Made by a program: the position numbers and the translations under genes
In this document: in pieces, positions 6,691 through 17,416 of the stretch
How the letters are laid out: each line of letters starts with the position of its first letter
Position numbering within the stretch: the stretch's first letter is position 1
Assembly: GCF_039993895.1 (NCBI RefSeq)
Contig: NZ_CP121194.1
Location: forward strand, 1,984,001 to 2,048,000
Direction of reading: 5' to 3'
DNA length: 64,000 nt
From: Edaphobacter paludis
Lineage (GTDB): Bacteria > Acidobacteriota > Terriglobia > Terriglobales > Acidobacteriaceae
Notes under the pieces: model-generated
Database searches by the model: none
Told to the model about the DNA's origin: nothing
Seen by the model: only the letters and a program-made list of their open reading frames with translations

Positions 6691-7875
6691 GTGAAAAAGA
6701 ATCGTTGTTTCCACGGTTGTGCGCTTTTTGTATCTTTACTGGCCTGCCAATGCGTCGCGCAGACGCAGACAATTCAATCCACTGCAGCGGCGGAACAGCC
6801 TCAGCAGAAAATGATGTCGCGGCAGAAGGTGACGGACATCATCGCTGCATCGCGGAAGATCGTCTCGCCGAATGGCGTCGAAGAACTTCTGCCTGTACAG
6901 ATCAATGGGATCACGCAGTGGTTATCTATTCGCGGTCGAGATCGTCGCAACCCAATTCTGCTATTTCTCCATGGCGGACCGGGATCTCCGACAATGCCCG
7001 CCGACTACACCTTTCAGAGCCCGTGGGAAGACTACTTTACCGTCGTGCAATGGGATCAGCGTGGCGCCGGAAAGACCTACGCCTCCAACGATCCCAAAGC
7101 GCTCGCTTCGACCATGACGGTGGAGCAAATGACGAGCGACGCGGAACAGGTCGTTCTGTACCTGCAGAAAAACTATGGCAAGAAGAAGATTTTTCTGCTG
7201 GGCCATTCCTGGGGAACCGTCCTTGGTGTTGCTTTAGCTCAACGACATCCTGATTGGTTCTATGCCTATCTGGGAGTCGGGCAGGTAGTGAATGACGAAA
7301 AGAGCGAGGAAGAGGGTTACCAATTTGCCATGCAGCAAGCGAAGTCCCATAACAACCTTGAAGCAGAAAAAGAGTTGACAGCGCTCGCTCCATATCCAGG
7401 AAAGCTTACGTTCGACCGGATCGGGGAGGAGCGCAAATGGCTGATGTACTACGGCGGATTGACCTACGGGCGGACCAATTTCTCCTACGACGGTAATGCA
7501 TGGTCTCTCTCTCCTGACTACACACAGAAGGATCTGGATCTTGTGAACGATGGCAGTTTCTTCTCTGTGACGTACCTTCTTGGAGCGCTCGAGGCCGTGG
7601 ATTATGATTCCGTGACAAATTTCAAGTGTCCGATCTTTCTTTTTGAAGGACGGCACGACTATACGACGTCTCATACACTGGCGGCGGAGTGGTTCGCGCG
7701 CATCCATGCTCCGTCAAAGAAGTTCGTGTGGTTCAATAACTCCGCTCACATGGTGATGCAGGAAGAACCTGGGCGCTTTCTCTACCACCTGATCACCGAT
7801 GTCCGTCCCTTGGCTGCGAAGGCTGGGGATGTCCCACCGGGTGATGAGCAAAGCGTCTCTTTGCAGCAGCAGTAG
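6691..7875 (+). CDS. Secreted alpha/beta hydrolase, proline iminopeptidase-like (peptidase S33)
   Basis: GTG start at 6691 with AGGAG at 6679-6683; 394 residues. An N-terminal signal sequence (ALFVSLLACQCVAQT) indicates export; the LLAC stretch could be a lipoprotein box, or cleavage may follow VAQ. The hydrolase core shows the S33 hallmarks: LFLHGGPGSP (oxyanion-hole region, 91-100), WDQRGAGKT (121-129), the nucleophile elbow GHSWGT with S173, D323 in EGRHDYTT and H353 in NNSAHMV. This family removes N-terminal proline or hydrolyses small esters and amides; the substrate is not predictable. It stands alone, downstream of a truncated gene. Confidence 0.85.
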   Translation: MKKNRCFHGCALFVSLLACQCVAQTQTIQSTAAAEQPQQKMMSRQKVTDIIAASRKIVSPNGVEELLPVQINGITQWLSIRGRDRRNPILLFLHGGPGSPTMPADYTFQSPWEDYFTVVQWDQRGAGKTYASNDPKALASTMTVEQMTSDAEQVVLYLQKNYGKKKIFLLGHSWGTVLGVALAQRHPDWFYAYLGVGQVVNDEKSEEEGYQFAMQQAKSHNNLEAEKELTALAPYPGKLTFDRIGEERKWLMYYGGLTYGRTNFSYDGNAWSLSPDYTQKDLDLVNDGSFFSVTYLLGALEAVDYDSVTNFKCPIFLFEGRHDYTTSHTLAAEWFARIHAPSKKFVWFNNSAHMVMQEEPGRFLYHLITDVRPLAAKAGDVPPGDEQSVSLQQQ

Positions 7876-8539: not shown

Positions 8540-9264
8540 CTAGCAAGCTGGCAAGGAGATTCGAAATGCTGTGCCACTCCTGCCCTGTCGAATACTGCTT
8601 CGGGTCTTCAATCTGCCGTGATGGCCTTCGACGATCGACTTCGAGATAGCCAGGCCTAAACCTGTTCCCAGATCCTGCTTGGTGGTGAAAAATGGCTCGA
8701 ATATCTGAGAGAGAATCGATTCTGGGATTCCGTGGCCGTTGTCAGCGACCATAATGTGAATCTCTTGTCCTGCTTTTCGAATACTGAGCGCTAGCGATCC
8801 TCCAATTGGAAGGGCATCTAACGCATTCCCAACAAGATTGGATAGGACCTGGAGCATCTCCCCGGCGTGCCCGTTGATAGCTGCTTTTTCGGGAAATACC
8901 TTCCGAACCTGCAGGCTGTTTGTTGAAATTTTGTGTTGATGTACGCGAAGCGCCGCCTCTGCGACCAGGATCAGATCGATCGGCTTCATCTCCGAAGACT
9001 TTCGATAGAAAGTGAGCGTTCTCGTTGCGATTTGTCTTACGGTTGCGAGCTGCTCTGCAAGCAAGCGTGCATATTGGCGCACCTTTGCTGGATTTTCGGC
9101 TTCCTCGTCAATCAAATAGGCAAGATTTCCGGCCGCGTCAAGAGGATTATTGATCTCGTGCATGATAGCCGCGCGAAGTATCCCGCTGTGGCCAGGGTTT
9201 GATTTTTGCGCGATGTCTCGACAATTTCGATCCACTTGGCCTGATCATATAACGCTTCTACCAT
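8540..9264 (-). pseudogene. Histidine kinase (HisKA-HATPase) with a frameshift near its N-terminus
   Basis: The C-terminal frame (GTG 9235 to TAG 8540, 231 residues) contains an intact H-box (IMHEINNPLDA, H26 of this frame), an N-box (LSNLVGNALDAL), G1 (DNGHGIP), an F-box (FEPFFTTK) and G2 (GTGLGL). A better start is ATG 9264 in another frame, encoding MVEALYDQAKWIEIVETSRK and then NQTLATAG, which should lead directly into the LRAAIMHEINN of the first frame; they are out of register by one base near 9178-9190. The related kinase at 14587-16047 has the continuous form ATGRLAHIIAHEINNPLEA. So this is either a decayed paralogue or a short kinase starting at GTG 9235. No sensor domain is present. 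Confidence 0.65.
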
Positions 9265-9798: not shown

Positions 9799-10668
9799 AT
9801 GAGCGCGTTTCAGCAGCTAGTCCGGTCGAATGAGTCAGGAATTCTCACTGGCTGGATACATGAGATGTCCAGTACAACGCGCCGTAGCGACCTTATGGAC
9901 GACGCTGATTTGAAGCAACAGGCAGCGGAGTTCCTGCGGCTGTTCACAGACGCCGCGCAGTCCGGCTCTGACGTCCAAGCTCAGGAGTTCGCAGCGACCA
10001 GAGAATTTCTGAAAGCCATCGCGAAGTCCCGTATGGAGCAGGGGTTCTCTCCGGTAGAAACGGCTATGTTTGTTCTTTCCTTGAAGCAACCAGTTTTTAA
10101 TGCTCTCAAGGACGCTCTTAAGGCAAATGCGTCCGAACTGGTGACAGAGATTTGGCTGTCAGGAGATCTCTTGGACAAACTTGCGATGCTGACTGTCGAT
10201 ATCGCGATCGTGTTTCGTGAGCAAACGATTAGCCGGCAGCAAGAAGAGATGTTGGAACTCTCAACTCCCGTAGTAAAGTTGTGGGATGGGGTCCTCGCGC
10301 TTCCGCTCATCGGGACCTTGGACAGCGCTCGTACACAAGTCGTCATGGAATCGCTTCTCACGGCCATCGTAGAGACCAACAGCCAGGTCGCCATCATCGA
10401 CATCACCGGCGTTCCGACCGTGGATACCTTGGTGGCACAGCACCTCATCAAGACCATTACAGCTGCGCGTTTGATGGGCGCGGATTGCTACTTGAGCGGC
10501 ATTCGCCCGGCAATTGCCCAGACTATTGTTCATCTGGGCATCGACCTGATTGATGTTCAGACTAAAGCTAAACTTTCGGATGCGTTCGCGGTGGCTCTAC
10601 AGCGCCTCGGCAAGACCGTCGTATCAATAAAGACTTCGGCAAGTCACGCGCCCAAGGGTAGGGAATAA
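9799..10668 (+). CDS. rsbR: RsbR-type stressosome co-antagonist (sensor domain plus STAS)
   Basis: This 289-residue protein has an all-helical N-terminal domain (about 1-150), of the kind found in RsbRD_N-type sensors, and a C-terminal STAS domain (about 155-275) beginning STPVVKLWDGVLALPLIGTL, as in RsbR proteins. The STAS phosphorylation segment reads DITGVPTVDT, with T210 at the position that RsbT phosphorylates in Bacillus RsbR. RsbR and RsbS build the stressosome, a large cytoplasmic complex holding RsbT until stress is sensed. It starts the operon, five bases before rsbS, with AAGGAG upstream. The stimulus is unknown; no haem- or flavin-binding domain is visible. Confidence 0.9.
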   Translation: MSAFQQLVRSNESGILTGWIHEMSSTTRRSDLMDDADLKQQAAEFLRLFTDAAQSGSDVQAQEFAATREFLKAIAKSRMEQGFSPVETAMFVLSLKQPVFNALKDALKANASELVTEIWLSGDLLDKLAMLTVDIAIVFREQTISRQQEEMLELSTPVVKLWDGVLALPLIGTLDSARTQVVMESLLTAIVETNSQVAIIDITGVPTVDTLVAQHLIKTITAARLMGADCYLSGIRPAIAQTIVHLGIDLIDVQTKAKLSDAFAVALQRLGKTVVSIKTSASHAPKGRE

Positions 10669-10673
10669 AACAA

Positions 10674-11069
10674 ATGGATCGTATCCCCATCCTAAAATTT
10701 GGCGACTGTCTTCTCGTCACGATCCAGGTGGATATGCACGACGAGCTCGCGATGTCTTTGCAGGAAGATCTGACTGCACAGATCGCGAAGTACGCTTCGC
10801 GGGGAGTGCTCATTGACATCTCTTCGCTTGAGATCGTCGACTCCTTCATCGGGCGCATGCTTGCAAATATCGCAGCCATGTCCCGTGTACTGGACGCGCA
10901 GACGGTGTTGACCGGCATGCAGCCCGCAGTAGCCATCACACTGGTCGAACTTGGTATGTCACTTCCCGGCATCAAAACCGCGCTCAACATTGAGCGCGGC
11001 ATGGAACTGCTTAAAGAGTATGTGAAGCAGGAGGTTGATGCCGAGGACGTCGATGACACTGAATCGTGA
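10674..11069 (+). CDS. rsbS: RsbS-type STAS anti-sigma-cascade scaffold protein
   Basis: A 131-residue single STAS-domain protein opening IPILKFGDCLLVTIQVDMHD, the typical RsbS N-terminus. The motif DISSLEIVDSFIGRML (48-63) carries S57 in the VDSF context, the site phosphorylated by RsbT to release it from the stressosome. The C-terminus is acidic (EDVDDTES). It follows rsbR by five bases and overlaps the probable rsbT start by 17 bases, so R, S and T are almost certainly co-translated. Length is slightly above Bacillus RsbS because of the acidic tail. Confidence 0.92.
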   Translation: MDRIPILKFGDCLLVTIQVDMHDELAMSLQEDLTAQIAKYASRGVLIDISSLEIVDSFIGRMLANIAAMSRVLDAQTVLTGMQPAVAITLVELGMSLPGIKTALNIERGMELLKEYVKQEVDAEDVDDTES

Positions 11070-11454
11070 GACCCATCTCATCTCGGTTTCGGACGATGTC
11101 GTCCGCATACGGCAGATCGCCCGAGCTTGGTGCGTGGAACTAAAGTTTAGTCTCGTCGATCAGACTAAATTCGTAACGGCAGCGAGCGAACTTGCGCGCA
11201 ACACATTGGAACATGGCGGTGGTGGCAGGATGAGCGCCGAGATTGTTGAAAATGGAGCGCGACGCGGTCTCAAACTGGTCTTTCAAGACAACGGACCAGG
11301 GATTTCGGATTTAGAACTAGCACTCAAGGATGGCTATACAACGGGCGGCGGCATGGGGCTCGGTTTGAGCGGCAGCAAACGACTTGTCAATGAATTCGAT
11401 ATCAAGAGCGAACCGGGGCAGGGCACGACTGTCACGATTGTCCGCTGGAAGTAG
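11053..11454 (+). CDS. rsbT: RsbT-type switch serine/threonine kinase
   Basis: From ATG 11053 (GAGG upstream; TTG 11035 and ATG 11038 are in-frame alternatives) the protein has 133 residues, the family norm. It is a GHKL-fold kinase: the N-box is ASELARNTLEHGGGG, G1 is DNGPGI, and G2 is GGGMGLGLSGSKRL followed by FDIKSEPGQGTTV. RsbT phosphorylates RsbR and RsbS under stress, leaves the complex and binds a downstream target. In Bacillus that is RsbU, but no RsbU or sigma-B gene lies nearby; the partners encoded here are an RsbX-like phosphatase and kinases carrying similar ATPase domains. Confidence 0.92.
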   Translation: MTLNRETHLISVSDDVVRIRQIARAWCVELKFSLVDQTKFVTAASELARNTLEHGGGGRMSAEIVENGARRGLKLVFQDNGPGISDLELALKDGYTTGGGMGLGLSGSKRLVNEFDIKSEPGQGTTVTIVRWK

Positions 11455-11460
11455 CGAGCC

Positions 11461-12465
11461 TTGCAACATCATCAGAAATCGATCGCGATCACCGATCGCA
11501 GCTCCATTGGGGAGGCGCGCCGCTCCGCAATTCATGCGGCGCAGACACTCGGCTTTGACGAAGAGCATCGTAGCAATATCGGGATCGTTTCTACGGAAGC
11601 CGCGACCAACATGCTGCTGCACGGACGCGAGGGGGAACTGCTTATCTGCCCGAATCTTTGCGTCGACGGCGCATGGCTGGATTTGATTGCGTTGGACTCT
11701 GGTCCGGGAATACGTGATGTAAGCCGGGCTATGGAAGACGGTTATTCCACAATAGGCACTGCCGGTCAGGGCATGGGAGCCATTCAGCGCATCTCTGACA
11801 CTTGTTCGCTCTATTCGGCAGTAGGTAAAGGAACAGCGTTTTGGTGCCGCTTCGTCCGCGGCCGAATACCCGCGACAGCGAATGTGGGAGTGGTGAGCCT
11901 CCCCATCAAGGGCGAGACGGTTGCCGGCGACTCCTATCTGGTATTGGAACGACATGGCCGGACGATCTACGTGGTGGTGGATGGTCTTGGACACGGAGCC
12001 GGGGCGACAGAAGCGTCGCAGGAGGCAGTCACTTCAGTCGAAAGACATTTCGAGCAGCCAGCCACAGTCATCATTGAACGGGCTCATGATGCGTTGAAGA
12101 AGACGCGGGGAGCTGCGCTTTCAATCGCCATTTTCGAATCTGCAGATCGAACACTAACGTACGCGGGAGTCGGCAACGTCAGCGCCATCGCCGTGACCGC
12201 GTCCGCCTCGCGCAGCCTAGTGACGCAGAATGGAACTCTTGGCGCAGTAATGCCACGCTCTCCGCAGCAATATGTATATCCGGTTGAGCCGGACACAACC
12301 CTCATCATGTTTTCTGACGGCCTAACATCCAAGGTCAGCCCGGCTGGCTATCCTGGCATTCTCCATCGTCCTCCCGGACTCCTGGCAGCCCTGCTCTACA
12401 GGGACTTCAGCCGCAGGCGGGACGATGCTACGGTACTGGTCGCAAAGCTCGGAGACAGGTCATGA
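11461..12465 (+). CDS. RsbX-like PP2C phosphatase with N-terminal RsbT/RsbW-like ATPase domain
   Basis: The 334-residue frame uses a TTG start six bases after rsbT; no better start is in frame. Residues 1-135 form a GHKL anti-sigma-like domain: STEAATNMLLHG (N-box), LDSGPGI (G1) and GTAGQGMGAIQRISD (G2). Residues 145-334 form a SpoIIE/RsbX-type PP2C domain with the metal-binding VVVDGLGHG segment, ALSIAIF, TYAGVGNV and a FSDGLTSKV motif near the end. RsbX resets the stressosome by dephosphorylating RsbR/RsbS. The fused ATPase domain is an addition compared with Bacillus RsbX. Its stop overlaps the next start by four bases (ATGA). Confidence 0.85.
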   Translation: MQHHQKSIAITDRSSIGEARRSAIHAAQTLGFDEEHRSNIGIVSTEAATNMLLHGREGELLICPNLCVDGAWLDLIALDSGPGIRDVSRAMEDGYSTIGTAGQGMGAIQRISDTCSLYSAVGKGTAFWCRFVRGRIPATANVGVVSLPIKGETVAGDSYLVLERHGRTIYVVVDGLGHGAGATEASQEAVTSVERHFEQPATVIIERAHDALKKTRGAALSIAIFESADRTLTYAGVGNVSAIAVTASASRSLVTQNGTLGAVMPRSPQQYVYPVEPDTTLIMFSDGLTSKVSPAGYPGILHRPPGLLAALLYRDFSRRRDDATVLVAKLGDRS

Positions 12466-14594
12466 ACAGGCACATCCATAGTGTGAATCTGACGACTGAA
12501 CGCGAGGTGGTCAGCGCCCGGCAGCAAGGCCGCACCATCGCCAGCGCCCTCGGCTTCGATCATCACGATCAGATTCGCATCGCCACAGCTGTGTCGGAAA
12601 TTGCAAGGAACGCGTTCCGTTACGCGAAAGATGGGACAGTCGTCTTTAGCGTTGACCCTCAGGTACGGCTGTTCCGCGTCACAGTAACCGACCATGGCGC
12701 TGGAATCCCCCACCTTGATGTCGTGATGGAAGGATCATACCGATCTACAACCGGCATGGGCATGGGTATTTTGGGTACAAAGCGTCTGATGGACGAATTT
12801 TCTATCGATACGACCCGGTTGGGTACCGCCGTCGAGTTTGGAAAATTTCTCCCAGTCCACAGTACCGCTCTTGGTGAAGATGATCTCCAGAGACTCATCG
12901 CCGAAGTTGCACGGCAGCATCCGGCTGCGCCGATCGACGAGTTGCAGACGCAGAATCGTGAGTTGTTGCGAACGCTGAACGAGCTTCGTGAGCGCAAAGA
13001 GGAACTGGATCACATCAACGCTGAACTCCAGGACACCAATCGCGGCGTTGTAGCGCTGTACGCGGAGCTGGATGAGCGTGCCGACTACCTGCGAAGAGCG
13101 TCCGAACTGAAGAGCAGCTTCCTGTCCAACATGTCCCACGAGTTTCGTACGCCGCTCAATTCCATGCTGGCTCTGACGCGAATGCTGCTCGAAAGGCTTG
13201 ATGGAGAACTGACTTCGGAGCAAGACCAGCAGATTCGCTTTATTCAGCGCTCGGCAAAAGAACTTTCAGAGATGGTGGATGACCTCCTCGACCTGGCAAA
13301 GGTCGAAGCGGGTCGGTTCAAGGTGAACGCCAAGACTTTCGACGTGAGTGAGCTGCTTGGGGCGCTTCGAGGGATGCTGAAGCCCTTGCTGGCCGAAAGC
13401 TCGCTGAATTTGGCCTTTGCATACGCTGAAAAGCTGCCTCCCCTGCATACGGATGAACAGAAGATATCGCAGGTACTGCGTAACTTTATCTCGAATGCAA
13501 TCAAATTTACGCCGCACGGGGAGGTGCGTGTTTCGACACGCGTCGTTGATGATGAGATTGAATTTTCTGTCACGGACTCCGGTATCGGCATTTCCGAGAG
13601 TGATCAGCGCATCATCTTCGAAGAGTTTTCTCAGATCGACAGCGCGATGCAAAAGAAGGTGAGGGGAACCGGCCTCGGTCTGCCTCTGTCAAAGAAGTTC
13701 GCCGAGTTGCTAGGCGGTCGAGTGGAAGTGAAGAGCGCAATGGGCGCGGGCTCTACCTTTTCCCTGATCGTTCCGATTGTCTTCAACAGCTCCTCTGCCT
13801 CCGTAGAGCCGGTCGTCCCTCTGCTCGATGCCGACAAGAAGCTCATCCTCATCGTGGAAGATAATGCCGAAACGGCATTTATCTATTCCAAATATCTCTC
13901 GAAGGCGGGCTTTCAGGCTCATTGCGTCTCGACGGTGCAGGCGGCCGAGGAACTTATCACCAAGATTCGGCCGGCCGCCGTCATTCTGGATGTTCTCTTG
14001 GGTACCGAGACTACTTGGGATTTTCTGCGCGAGATCAAGAAAGAAAAAGAAGCAATTCCTGTATTGGTGATGAGTGTCACTGACGATGCTCAGAGAATCT
14101 TTGGCTCCGGTGCCGATTCGTACCTCCTCAAGCCGTTTGTGCCCGAAGAAATGATTGCCGAAATCCTAAAGTTGACGTCGCCGTTCGAACGCATACGTAT
14201 CCTCATGATCGACGACAACGAGGTCTCCCGGTACCTGCTTCGGGGGCATATACCGGAGACACGTTACGAAGTCTTCGAGGCGAGGGATGCCAGGGAAGGG
14301 CTTCGCATGGCACAGCAACTGATGCCCGCGCTCATTTTTCTCGACTTTTATATGCCGGATCTCAACGGAGCAGAAGTTGTTCGCAATATCCGCAACTCCA
14401 AAGACATCGCGCAGACCCCGGTCGTCTTGCACTCCACCAAGGTCCTCGATGCCGAGGAGCTGGAGTATTTTCGCGAAAACTCCATCACCATTTTCCCCAA
14501 GCAGACTCTGACTCTGACAGACTCGTCCGTCCGGATTCGCTCGCTCATTGAAAGTCTTACTGCCCACGGGAACGAGGAGGAGCCTCGTGTCTGA
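12462..14594 (+). CDS. Hybrid histidine kinase with N-terminal RsbT-like ATPase domain and two receiver domains
   Basis: 710 residues with an unusual order: an RsbT-like ATPase domain (1-130; N-box around E46 and N50, G1 DHGAGI at 77-82, G2 GMGMGI at 98-103), a coiled coil (155-215), a HisKA domain with phosphorylatable H226 in SNMSHEFRTPL, a HATPase domain (N-box FISNAIKF, G1 DSGIGI, G2 GTGLGL, to about 440), REC1 (460-572, D510) and REC2 (578-690, D628). There is no membrane segment, so it acts in the cytoplasm. Operon position and the RsbT-like head suggest it takes its signal from the stressosome, perhaps through RsbS or RsbR binding (inference). It overlaps the next gene by eight bases. 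Confidence 0.9.
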   Translation: MNRHIHSVNLTTEREVVSARQQGRTIASALGFDHHDQIRIATAVSEIARNAFRYAKDGTVVFSVDPQVRLFRVTVTDHGAGIPHLDVVMEGSYRSTTGMGMGILGTKRLMDEFSIDTTRLGTAVEFGKFLPVHSTALGEDDLQRLIAEVARQHPAAPIDELQTQNRELLRTLNELRERKEELDHINAELQDTNRGVVALYAELDERADYLRRASELKSSFLSNMSHEFRTPLNSMLALTRMLLERLDGELTSEQDQQIRFIQRSAKELSEMVDDLLDLAKVEAGRFKVNAKTFDVSELLGALRGMLKPLLAESSLNLAFAYAEKLPPLHTDEQKISQVLRNFISNAIKFTPHGEVRVSTRVVDDEIEFSVTDSGIGISESDQRIIFEEFSQIDSAMQKKVRGTGLGLPLSKKFAELLGGRVEVKSAMGAGSTFSLIVPIVFNSSSASVEPVVPLLDADKKLILIVEDNAETAFIYSKYLSKAGFQAHCVSTVQAAEELITKIRPAAVILDVLLGTETTWDFLREIKKEKEAIPVLVMSVTDDAQRIFGSGADSYLLKPFVPEEMIAEILKLTSPFERIRILMIDDNEVSRYLLRGHIPETRYEVFEARDAREGLRMAQQLMPALIFLDFYMPDLNGAEVVRNIRNSKDIAQTPVVLHSTKVLDAEELEYFRENSITIFPKQTLTLTDSSVRIRSLIESLTAHGNEEEPRV

Positions 14595-16047
14595 ACTAGA
14601 AAATCGCGGGCGCGTTCTGATCATTGATGATCGAGAGGAGACCCGCTACATTTTCCGACGAATCCTGGTTCGAGCAGGTTTTGCAGTCGAAGAAGCAGCG
14701 ACTGGCAGTGAGGGATTGGTGAGAGCACTGTCTCTACCAGACATCGTCATCTCAGATGTGAATCTCCCCGACATGCTCGGCTACGAGGTGTGCAGGAGAC
14801 TGAAATCTAATCCTGTCACGGCCAGCATCCCCGTGTTGCAGATATCCGCATCTTTCGTTTCAGACGAGAGCAAGGTCCAGGCACTGAAAGAAGGGGCAGA
14901 CTCCTATCTGACGCAACCCGTAGAGCCGACTGTGCTTGTTGCGCAGGTTGAGGCGCTTCTACGGTTGCGCCGCGCGGAGTCCCTTTCGCATCACTCGGCT
15001 CTGCAATGGCAGACCGCCTTTGACGCCTTGAATGATGGCCTTGCGCTCGCAGATTCAAACGGACGCACGATTCGTGTAAATGCGACCTTTATGCAGCTTC
15101 TTAATTTGGTCGCGGCGGATATTGAAGGGAAAAGGCTCGCCGATATCTTTCAAGCGAATTTTCAGATGAGCTTGGAGAGCTTGCTGGAATCGAGTGAAAG
15201 AGGCCAACTTGGAGAGCTTTCATTCGGGAATCGTTGGTTTAGGGTGCGTTATGACACGATCAAAGCAAATCTTGATATGGAAAGTGGCTCGATTCTGATC
15301 CTGACCGATACGACGGATCATCGAAAACTGCAAGAGATGCTGAAATTGAGTGAGCGGCTAGCGGCTACCGGTCGGCTGGCCCACATCATCGCGCACGAAA
15401 TCAACAATCCGCTTGAGGCGATGTCGAACCTGCTTTATCTGGCGGCAAACGGATCGAGAGAGAATTTTCCGGAAACCCAAAGCTACATAAATCAGGCATC
15501 AGAAGAGCTGCTGCGCATCAGCCGAATCACAAAGCAGGTGCTGGCTTTCCATCGCGAGTCGACGTTGCCCACGATGTGCGCGGCCAACGAAATGATCGAA
15601 GGTGTCATCGCGCTCTTCCGTATTCATGTCGCGAAGCAGAACATAACGCTGAAATCGGATCTTAGATCCAACGATCAGCTACTGCTCCACTCTGGTGAAA
15701 TGCGACAGGTATTCAATAATTTGGTCACGAATGCTTTGGACGCTATGGGAGTATGTGAGGGTACGGTGTTGGTACGCTGCATGCGTTCCGTTAGCTATCC
15801 GGACGGCGTACCAGGGGTGCGCTTCCTCTTCAGCGATTGCGGAAGAGGAATTCCGCCAGAGGCTTTGCCTCGGATCTTTGAAGCGTTCTATACCACCAAG
15901 GATTCGAAGGGCGCCGGTACCGGTCTGTGGCTGAGCTCTGAAGTAGTAGCCAAGCACCAAGGGCTGATCCGCGTCAGGAGCAGAACATCAGGGTCTTATC
16001 GGGGTACCCTCTTCGACGTTTTCATTCCTTTGCCATCTGCAAATTAG
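14587..16047 (+). CDS. REC-PAS-histidine kinase, last gene of the stressosome operon
   Basis: GTG 14587, with AGGAGG at 14575-14580, gives 486 residues. Order: receiver domain (8-125; D57 in VISDVNLPD), PAS domain (about 140-250) and HisKA/HATPase (H270 in IIAHEINNPL; N-box FNNLVTNALDAM; G1 DCGRGI; F-box FEAFYTTKDSKG; G2 GTGLWL). In the receiver the near-invariant lysine of the TK-P switch is glutamine (YLTQPVEP, Q110), which may lock or weaken its phosphorylation response. The kinase core is closely related to the broken kinase at 8540-9264. It probably receives phosphate from, or acts with, the preceding hybrid kinase; the terminal output regulator is not in the window. Confidence 0.88.
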   Translation: MSELENRGRVLIIDDREETRYIFRRILVRAGFAVEEAATGSEGLVRALSLPDIVISDVNLPDMLGYEVCRRLKSNPVTASIPVLQISASFVSDESKVQALKEGADSYLTQPVEPTVLVAQVEALLRLRRAESLSHHSALQWQTAFDALNDGLALADSNGRTIRVNATFMQLLNLVAADIEGKRLADIFQANFQMSLESLLESSERGQLGELSFGNRWFRVRYDTIKANLDMESGSILILTDTTDHRKLQEMLKLSERLAATGRLAHIIAHEINNPLEAMSNLLYLAANGSRENFPETQSYINQASEELLRISRITKQVLAFHRESTLPTMCAANEMIEGVIALFRIHVAKQNITLKSDLRSNDQLLLHSGEMRQVFNNLVTNALDAMGVCEGTVLVRCMRSVSYPDGVPGVRFLFSDCGRGIPPEALPRIFEAFYTTKDSKGAGTGLWLSSEVVAKHQGLIRVRSRTSGSYRGTLFDVFIPLPSAN

Positions 16048-16830: not shown

Positions 16831-17072
16831 TACCGAAGGCGAGTGATCATGTTATGTACTGATGCCGAGAATTCCAGAAGTCATAGGCGGGACGTAAGCA
16901 AAGAGCACGCATGGCTTCGCGATTCCCAGTGACCGGCAGCGCTCCTTACCAGTTTTTCCGGCTTGAGCAGCCCCCTGCGCTTCTCGCGTGTGTAGAACAA
17001 CGAAATTGCCTGCAGAAAGTCTGTGTTCGAAACCTCAGCAATGATTCCGGATGCAGTTCCTTCTCTCCATTC

Positions 17073-17295
17073 GTACGGACGCCAACATACGGCACGTCAC
17101 ACATACCGAAGCCTCCTAGACGATGCAGGGGCACCCATCGGAGTCCAGCAGAAGCTCATGCGGCACGCGCAGGTGAGCACGACAATGGACATCTATGGAT
17201 CTGCTTATCTGGAGTCGAAGAGGGCAGCTAATGGGAGCGTCGTCAATCTTATCTTGGCTCCAAAACAGATTGGCCAGAACCATGCCACCACATGA
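17073..17295 (+). pseudogene. C-terminal remnant of a tyrosine recombinase (phage-type integrase)
   Basis: The frame ending at 17295 encodes ARHTYRSLLDDAGAPIGVQQ, then KLMRHAQVSTTMDIYGSAYL. This is the end of an integrase catalytic domain: HTYRSLL carries the H-x-x-R pair, LMRHAQVSTTMDIYG the second conserved His region and the nucleophilic tyrosine (in DIYG). The N-terminal arm-binding, core-binding and first catalytic Arg regions are not upstream. It points at the 3' end of the initiator tRNA gene 44 bases away, the normal arrangement of an integrase beside its attachment site. Confidence 0.75.

Positions 17296-17339: not shown

Positions 17340-17416
<77 letters not shown>

Follow-up and report, generated by a model that had tools for sequence, protein, structure and literature searches.

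How does a stressosome pass on its signal when the sigma factor SigB is missing? This is an open question, and for Vibrio no positive interaction between the switch kinase RsbT and the kinase D1 was obtained (PMC9237108). The question is raised again by an operon of Edaphobacter paludis that is located at positions 9799-16047 of a stretch of 64,000 nucleotides (the window, C1:1984001-2048000 of the 4.04-Mb genome). It comprises six genes, all on the plus strand and in one tight run, which according to Pfam encode RsbR, RsbS, RsbT, a PP2C phosphatase (X), the hybrid histidine kinase D1, and a second kinase, D2 (Table 1). D1 begins with a domain related to RsbT, here called the head. We propose that D1 uses this head to dock on the RsbR/RsbS core in the same way as RsbT, and that occupancy of the docking site would control the phosphorelay. 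We assign a probability of about 50% to this proposal, which is derived from sequence comparisons.

Gene content of the operon and known relatives

The first-pass annotation had described the locus as rsbR-rsbS-rsbT-rsbX-like genes followed, with overlapping starts, by a hybrid kinase and a REC-PAS kinase, and both the Pfam domains and the gene borders agree with this description. The RsbR product matched solved RsbR chains at 3.1e-33 and, in the case of 7o0i_B, at 9.6e-34. In RsbS, Ser57 within the motif DSF is aligned with residue 56 of the solved RsbS chain 6qcm_A; it is present in 81 of 81 RsbS rows and is the predicted phosphorylatable serine. RsbT is a switch kinase of the GHKL type with the Glu/Asn motif, and D1 unites HisKA, HATPase_c, and REC in a single protein, as is typical for a hybrid kinase. 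In D2 neither a DNA-binding domain nor a cyclic di-GMP (c-di-GMP) domain was detected with Pfam, nor was any output domain beyond the kinase recognised, and the final effector lies outside the operon.

Throughout the run the genes overlap or are only a few bases apart. Sequence and homologues favour ATG 11053 as the start of rsbT, with a 17-base overlap with rsbS, over TTG 11035, from which the frame is open, and ATG 12462 as the start of D1, with an ATGA overlap with X. D2 probably starts at GTG 14587 behind AGGAGG, with an 8-base overlap with the D1 stop, and this codon was preferred over TTG 14548; for rsbT and D2 the likely starts thus differ from the longest open frames. The spacing suggests that the six genes form a single transcript, and a promoter and terminator scan of the operon yielded nothing above shuffled sequences.

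RsbU, RsbV, RsbW, and a sigma factor gene are all absent from the six genes according to Pfam, as had been noticed at first reading, and the operon itself does not encode a SigB cascade. A search of the entire genome for RsbU_N gave no hit (B. subtilis alone among 14 control genomes was positive), and no SigB/F/G-type factor exceeded the curated cut-off genome-wide, the best one reaching 126.5 bits versus a cut-off of 234.35. The genome does contain, elsewhere, two neighbour pairs of HATPase_c_2 and STAS genes that are RsbW/RsbV-like (C1:2372268-2373007 and C1:3597774-3598540). They could act downstream of the operon or be unrelated to it.

Modules of RsbR, RsbS, RsbT, and RsbX (RSTX) with a two-component or phosphorelay output have already been published (PMC9237108; accessible part of PMC10014275), and the Vibrio precedent that had been invoked for the present locus is thus real. 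In Vibrio vulnificus rsbRSTX is followed by the two-component pair D1-D2, likewise without sigB and RsbU (PMC9237108; PMC10014275). As far as the accessible portions of these descriptions go, the Vibrio RsbR has a globin sensor, whereas the RsbR of the window has RsbRD_N and matched no globin family at E 0.001. The Vibrio D1-D2 pair is thought to act on c-di-GMP, whereas D2 of the window consists of REC, PAS, HisKA, and HATPase only. The phosphatase of Vibrio-type clusters is called single-domain, in contrast to X with its HATPase_c_2 head and SpoIIE domain, and both X and D1 of the window carry RsbT-like heads, unlike the proteins in the Vibrio description. More generally, RSTX modules followed by HisKA/REC phosphorelay proteins (PMC9237108) share the output to such proteins with the window operon; the available running text on them, its figure aside, does not mention an RsbT-like kinase head.

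The SigB stressosomes of Bacillus and Listeria have RsbR, RsbS, and RsbT in common with the window operon, but the latter is devoid of RsbU_N, RsbV/W, and sigB. The RsbK-RsbY system of Bacillus cereus also uses a hybrid kinase in a stress pathway, but, in the accessible part of its description, it leads to SigB and does without RsbRST. The same six genes with largely the same domains are present on pMP1 of Deinococcus radiodurans (E5Q09_RS15105-RS15130; L204 3130-8935), where D1 has a single REC and D2 has no PAS hit; their annotation there goes no further than STAS, anti-sigma, and ATP-binding proteins. In the open-access literature, as represented by listings and the beginnings of abstracts and with older reviews outside, no description of an RsbT-headed kinase was recognised, and the novelty of the headed kinase is therefore provisional.

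Distribution of the operon type and of the headed kinase

A collection of species genomes was scanned with the RsbS alignment, which gave at least 571 confirmed stretches. The best 80 loci were kept; they were ranked by likeness to the RsbS of the window and are thus biased toward this operon type. The six-gene arrangement had at first been regarded as unusual, but this view cannot be upheld, because all six genes were found in order at 56 of the 80 loci, from seven phyla, and in D. radiodurans. The recurrence of the same order at 56 of 80 loci also indicates more than a chance arrangement. A head was detected in 46 of the 56. At 14 of the 80 loci the set is complete except for a recognised D2; some of these are cut by a contig end, and in others the method overlooks D2 because its frame begins ahead of the kinase match of D1. 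RsbR alone is missing from two loci, which are at a contig end, and eight stop before the kinase domain.

A search of gene neighbourhoods for fusions of an RsbT-type domain with HisKA beside rsbRS, as had been recommended for this locus, was productive: among the 72 loci whose sequence extends to the kinase, 60 have a D-type head on it. These 60 belong to Pseudomonadota (31), Acidobacteriota (15), Cyanobacteriota (5), and Gemmatimonadota (4), with one locus each from Planctomycetota, Nitrospirota, Rokuibacteriota, Myxococcota, and Bdellovibrionota. A Sphingomonas plasmid carries the first five genes of the set. The window operon is a typical representative of an operon type that is widespread, and its headed kinase is a feature that has received little notice.

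The system was also looked for within two phyla. The nearest RsbS loci belong to Acidobacteriaceae. In a sample of Acidobacteriota an RsbS match was present in 17 of 199 genomes. Two of the 18 RsbS stretches have a good D1 head, one (L054) has a headless D1, and three have a decayed head; in the other 12 no head was recognised, and some of these are incomplete or have no D1-like kinase. The head model was matched at 1e-10 in 42 of 398 genomes of Pseudomonadota; for many of them the matches were confined to frames about as long as RsbT. A head together with a kinase was observed in nine of the 42, including the centre genome, which had been chosen for having a headed kinase, and at most ten candidates were scored per genome.

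The D1 head: ATP site, kept surface, and possible function

RsbT-like ATPase folds in three consecutive proteins had been noticed in the sequence at the outset, and Pfam places HATPase domains in RsbT, X, and D1. In a tree of 222 heads these form three classes, every one of which is set apart from the rest by a single branch, with a support of 88 for RsbT and starred values of 100 for X and 98 for D1; the tree has few columns for its rows and came with a warning that two long branches, X and D, join each other. On this basis the D1 head appears to form its own class beside RsbT. Its consensus is nearer to RsbT than that of the phosphatase head is.

Glu46 is present in all 63 D1 heads (including that of the window and two at contig ends) and Asn50 in 52 of them. 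The ATP site has been lost in 11 of the 63, i.e., in nine Oxalobacteraceae, in Archangium, and in one alphaproteobacterial metagenome-assembled genome (MAG). In the nine ATP-motif columns conservation falls from 0.99 in the live heads to 0.16 in the 11 dead heads (0.18 over the eight columns that are not class-defining), and a drop from 0.95 to 0.56 is seen in 14 further conserved columns. In contrast, the 15 conserved columns of alpha1-alpha2 (residues 13-49), which were chosen after the alignment had been seen, are kept at 0.94 in both live and dead heads. The loss occurred repeatedly: on a kinase-domain tree, which contains ten of the 11 dead rows, three changes are needed for the dead heads, a single change suffices in none of 200 bootstrap trees, and the approximately unbiased (AU) test rejects one clade of dead heads (p-AU 0.0123).

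This pattern bears on the possibility that the head is a second active serine/threonine kinase for RsbS/RsbR, by which D1 would feed back on the stressosome. The ATP motifs and Glu46 of the window head are intact, and Asn50 is retained in most heads, as would be expected for such a kinase. However, three lineages keep the face and not the ATP site, and we regard a feedback kinase as very improbable. For the same reason, contact by docking is more plausible than a role of the head in phosphorylating RsbS. The first-pass annotation had predicted that RsbT or RsbT-like heads move between the stressosome and a phosphorelay; the heads could indeed link the two, with docking rather than phosphorylation of RsbS as the favoured form of contact.

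A candidate for the partner of the kept surface is offered by the RsbV-RsbW crystal structure, in which, according to the accessible part of the report, Arg23, Asp42, Lys44/Ser48, Glu49, and Tyr118 of RsbW bond to RsbV (PMC7340262). The head profile is aligned with SpoIIAB at Arg20, Glu46, and Asn50, and it also matches RsbW. With an offset of 3, deduced from the alignments, RsbW Arg23, Ser48, and Glu49 would correspond to Arg20, Ser45, and Glu46 of the head, each of which is conserved at 1.00 in the dead heads. The counterpart of RsbW Asp42 would be head position 39, where nearly all D1 heads have Arg and the RsbT of the window has Lys. Listeria RsbT has been modelled on RsbS from the same templates, as stated in the available part of that study (PMC9237128). 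Judged by homology, the surface that survives the loss of the ATP site would largely be the STAS-binding one.

Two genomes contain an extra headed kinase outside the operon, namely G538 (L199 6021-8518) and a Massilia (L198 7879-9267). The G538 kinase gene is divergent from an adjoining RsbR gene (RsbRD_N and STAS). Neither RsbS nor RsbT was found in the 15-kb stretch around it, and RsbT is encoded elsewhere in that genome. The pairing of a headed kinase with RsbR would fit a contact between head and STAS domain.

The kept residues could also be explained by another partner. The dimer of RsbW is formed by alpha1 and beta1, again according to the accessible part of the structural report (PMC7340262), and some alpha1 residues are common to RsbT and the D1 head. 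The head might pair head-to-head with free RsbT, similar to an RsbW dimer, and RsbT released from the stressosome would activate D1 as it does RsbU. We consider this rather unlikely, because the dead heads also keep Ser45, Glu46, and Arg49 of alpha2, the first two of which correspond to STAS contacts in RsbW, and because the orphan kinase of G538 adjoins an RsbR gene without RsbT, although that genome does have RsbT elsewhere.

Natural variants bear on the importance of the head. D1 is headless at 11 of the 72 loci that reach the kinase (Pseudomonas, Luteibacter, and one gamma MAG), where the X stop and the kinase match are only 37-46 codons apart and a coil is kept. At an additional locus (L100, kinase 11776-13821) an N-terminus of 178 residues without recognisable head motifs stands in place of the head. 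The headless operons would be in agreement with a model in which RsbT phosphorylates D1 directly, or touches it transiently, and the head is only a relic; direct action of RsbT on D1 has been proposed for V. vulnificus (PMC9237108). However, the alpha1-alpha2 columns are kept even after the ATP site is lost, and the proposal for Vibrio stands beside the missing positive interaction mentioned above, so that we judge this model to be improbable.

Three distant Acidobacteriota operons, two of which are nearly identical, have a head stub, even further decayed than the dead heads, that keeps Arg20, Ser45, Glu46, and Arg49, with Val or Cys instead of Asn50. In the distant operons L066 (3-1819), L067 (1530-3160), and L068 (7970-10347) an RsbT-type domain is fused directly to a PP2C phosphatase, and the decayed D1-type head is encoded in the next frame.

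The preferred explanation is docking of the D1 head on the stressosome, and it can be formulated as a series of steps. The stressosome module would consist of the RsbR/RsbS core, the switch kinase RsbT, and a PP2C phosphatase for resetting, and its output would be a phosphorelay. The RsbT-related head of D1 would dock on the STAS face of RsbS/RsbR, like RsbT. Stress would alter RsbR, RsbT would then phosphorylate RsbS/RsbR, and the affinity of the docking site would shift. As a result D1 would either be released or take the site vacated by RsbT; both directions of the switch are conceivable. Because the head is connected with HisKA by a linker, occupancy could set the autokinase activity of D1, and phosphate would be transferred from D1 to its own REC domains and further to the REC of D2. 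Phosphatase X, with its own head, would reset RsbS/RsbR.

Several observations weigh against docking as the conserved function of the head, or against the evidence for it. The head is not indispensable, because eleven related operons have a headless D1. In the decayed stubs of the three distant operons no more than 7-8 of the 15 alpha1-alpha2 columns survive, the RLMD piece is not kept, and the orphan kinase of Massilia has no RsbR match nearby. The kept surface overlaps the alpha1 dimer face of RsbW, and part of it may serve dimerisation. The window's own D1 head is intact and may also be a kinase. With respect to independent losses, the starred branches of the kinase-domain tree alone force only one change, the head tree, in contrast to the kinase-domain tree, places the three dead lineages together, and nine of the 11 dead heads are closely related to one another, while the other two lineages are represented by one genome each.

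Codons of the head were compared by ratios of non-synonymous to synonymous differences (pN/pS), which are crude values. In the dead heads of Oxalobacteraceae residues 10-50 have a pN/pS of 0.38 and residues 107-112 one of 0.21, with 0.77-0.85 elsewhere (0.77 for residues 51-106). RsbT of the same genomes has values of 0.31 and 0.42 for its two parts, and thus only the second part of the head is relaxed. Live heads from other groups, however, show a similar, about two- to threefold contrast at lower values (0.09-0.18 versus 0.21-0.46), which also has to be counted against the docking proposal. Dead heads do not exceed live ones in this contrast along the head, and the codon comparison is ambiguous and only weakly helpful.

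If docking is correct, the operons would represent a two-component kinase that is governed by the occupancy of a protein cage and not by a ligand. Somewhat more tentatively, we suggest that they constitute a widespread class of stressosomes, in which a copy of RsbT fused to a hybrid kinase has become a docking head and either competes with RsbT for the cage or takes its place there, some heads being docking-only pseudokinases. The headed kinase offers a concrete and testable link between stressosome and phosphorelay in many phyla, with the dead-head and headless variants as natural controls, and D. radiodurans, a laboratory organism, also carries a headed-kinase operon.

Genomic setting of the operon

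Table 1. Features of the operon and its right-hand surroundings (window coordinates).
Feature	Position	Strand	Evidence
rsbR-like gene, RsbRD_N sensor domain and STAS	9799..10668	+	Pfam RsbRD_N 1.9e-25, STAS 8.7e-15
rsbS-like gene, single STAS	10674..11069	+	Pfam STAS 1.1e-8; solved RsbS chain 6qcm_A 1.1e-33
rsbT-like switch kinase gene	11053..11454	+	Pfam HATPase_c 2.1e-14, HATPase_c_2 1.5e-8
Phosphatase X, HATPase_c_2 head (about residues 1-135) and SpoIIE/PP2C	11461..12465	+	Pfam
D1 hybrid histidine kinase, RsbT-like head, HisKA, HATPase_c, and two REC	12462..14594	+	Pfam
RsbT-like head of D1, residues 1-135, HATPase_c_2	12462..12866	+	Pfam; 9/9 ATP-motif columns intact
D2 kinase, REC-PAS-HisKA-HATPase_c	14587..16047	+	Pfam, applied to the frame from 14548
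C-terminal remnant of a phage-type (tyrosine) integrase, abuts the tRNA	17023..17295	+	PF00589 6.3e-4, 20 bits
tRNA-Met (cat), putative attachment site	17340..17416	-	Integrase beside tRNA, as a remnant only

Just upstream of rsbR, and divergent from it, a gene for a short HisKA-HATPase_c kinase is located (8540..9235, minus strand). Among the loci searched its best matches are mostly D2 kinases of such operons, and its membership in the system is uncertain. An alpha/beta hydrolase gene (6691-7875) was considered as a partner of the operon, since a hydrolase gene lies beside the Deinococcus operon. This candidate was rejected: tblastn at 1e-8 gave no rows at 91 loci, and a direct comparison of the two hydrolases gave only 31% identity over 77 residues (E 1.6e-6).

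To the right of the operon lie an integrase remnant and a tRNA-Met gene (Table 1). The PF00589 match of the remnant is below the cut-off of 27.1 and covers positions 128-166 of the 172 of the profile. The 3' half of the tRNA-Met gene is repeated at C1:1963995-1964039 (45 bases with 3 differences), about 37 kb to the left and outside the window, and ARAGORN found no tRNA at this far repeat. The repeats delimit a putative element of about 37.3 kb (C1:1964040-2001339) that contains the operon, which may thus sit on a genomic island anchored at tRNA-Met. No RsbS match was found in the other genomes of the genus in the phylum sample (ten listed).

The 45-base piece is present with up to three mismatches in 37 of 41 genomes of the genus (its own included), in 12 of them two or three times. 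In the corresponding loci of 29 relatives from the same genus, the BON-domain gene to the right of the tRNA had a match in 24 and the genes of the left flank in none (flanks of 1.5 kb only), and no empty site could be recognised among them. The latter are perhaps absent because the far repeat borders another decayed element, and an integrase-like piece indeed lies also beside the far repeat. Integrase pieces are found beside tRNA-Met in 17 of the 29 loci, and across the genus this tRNA seems to be a hotspot of integration.

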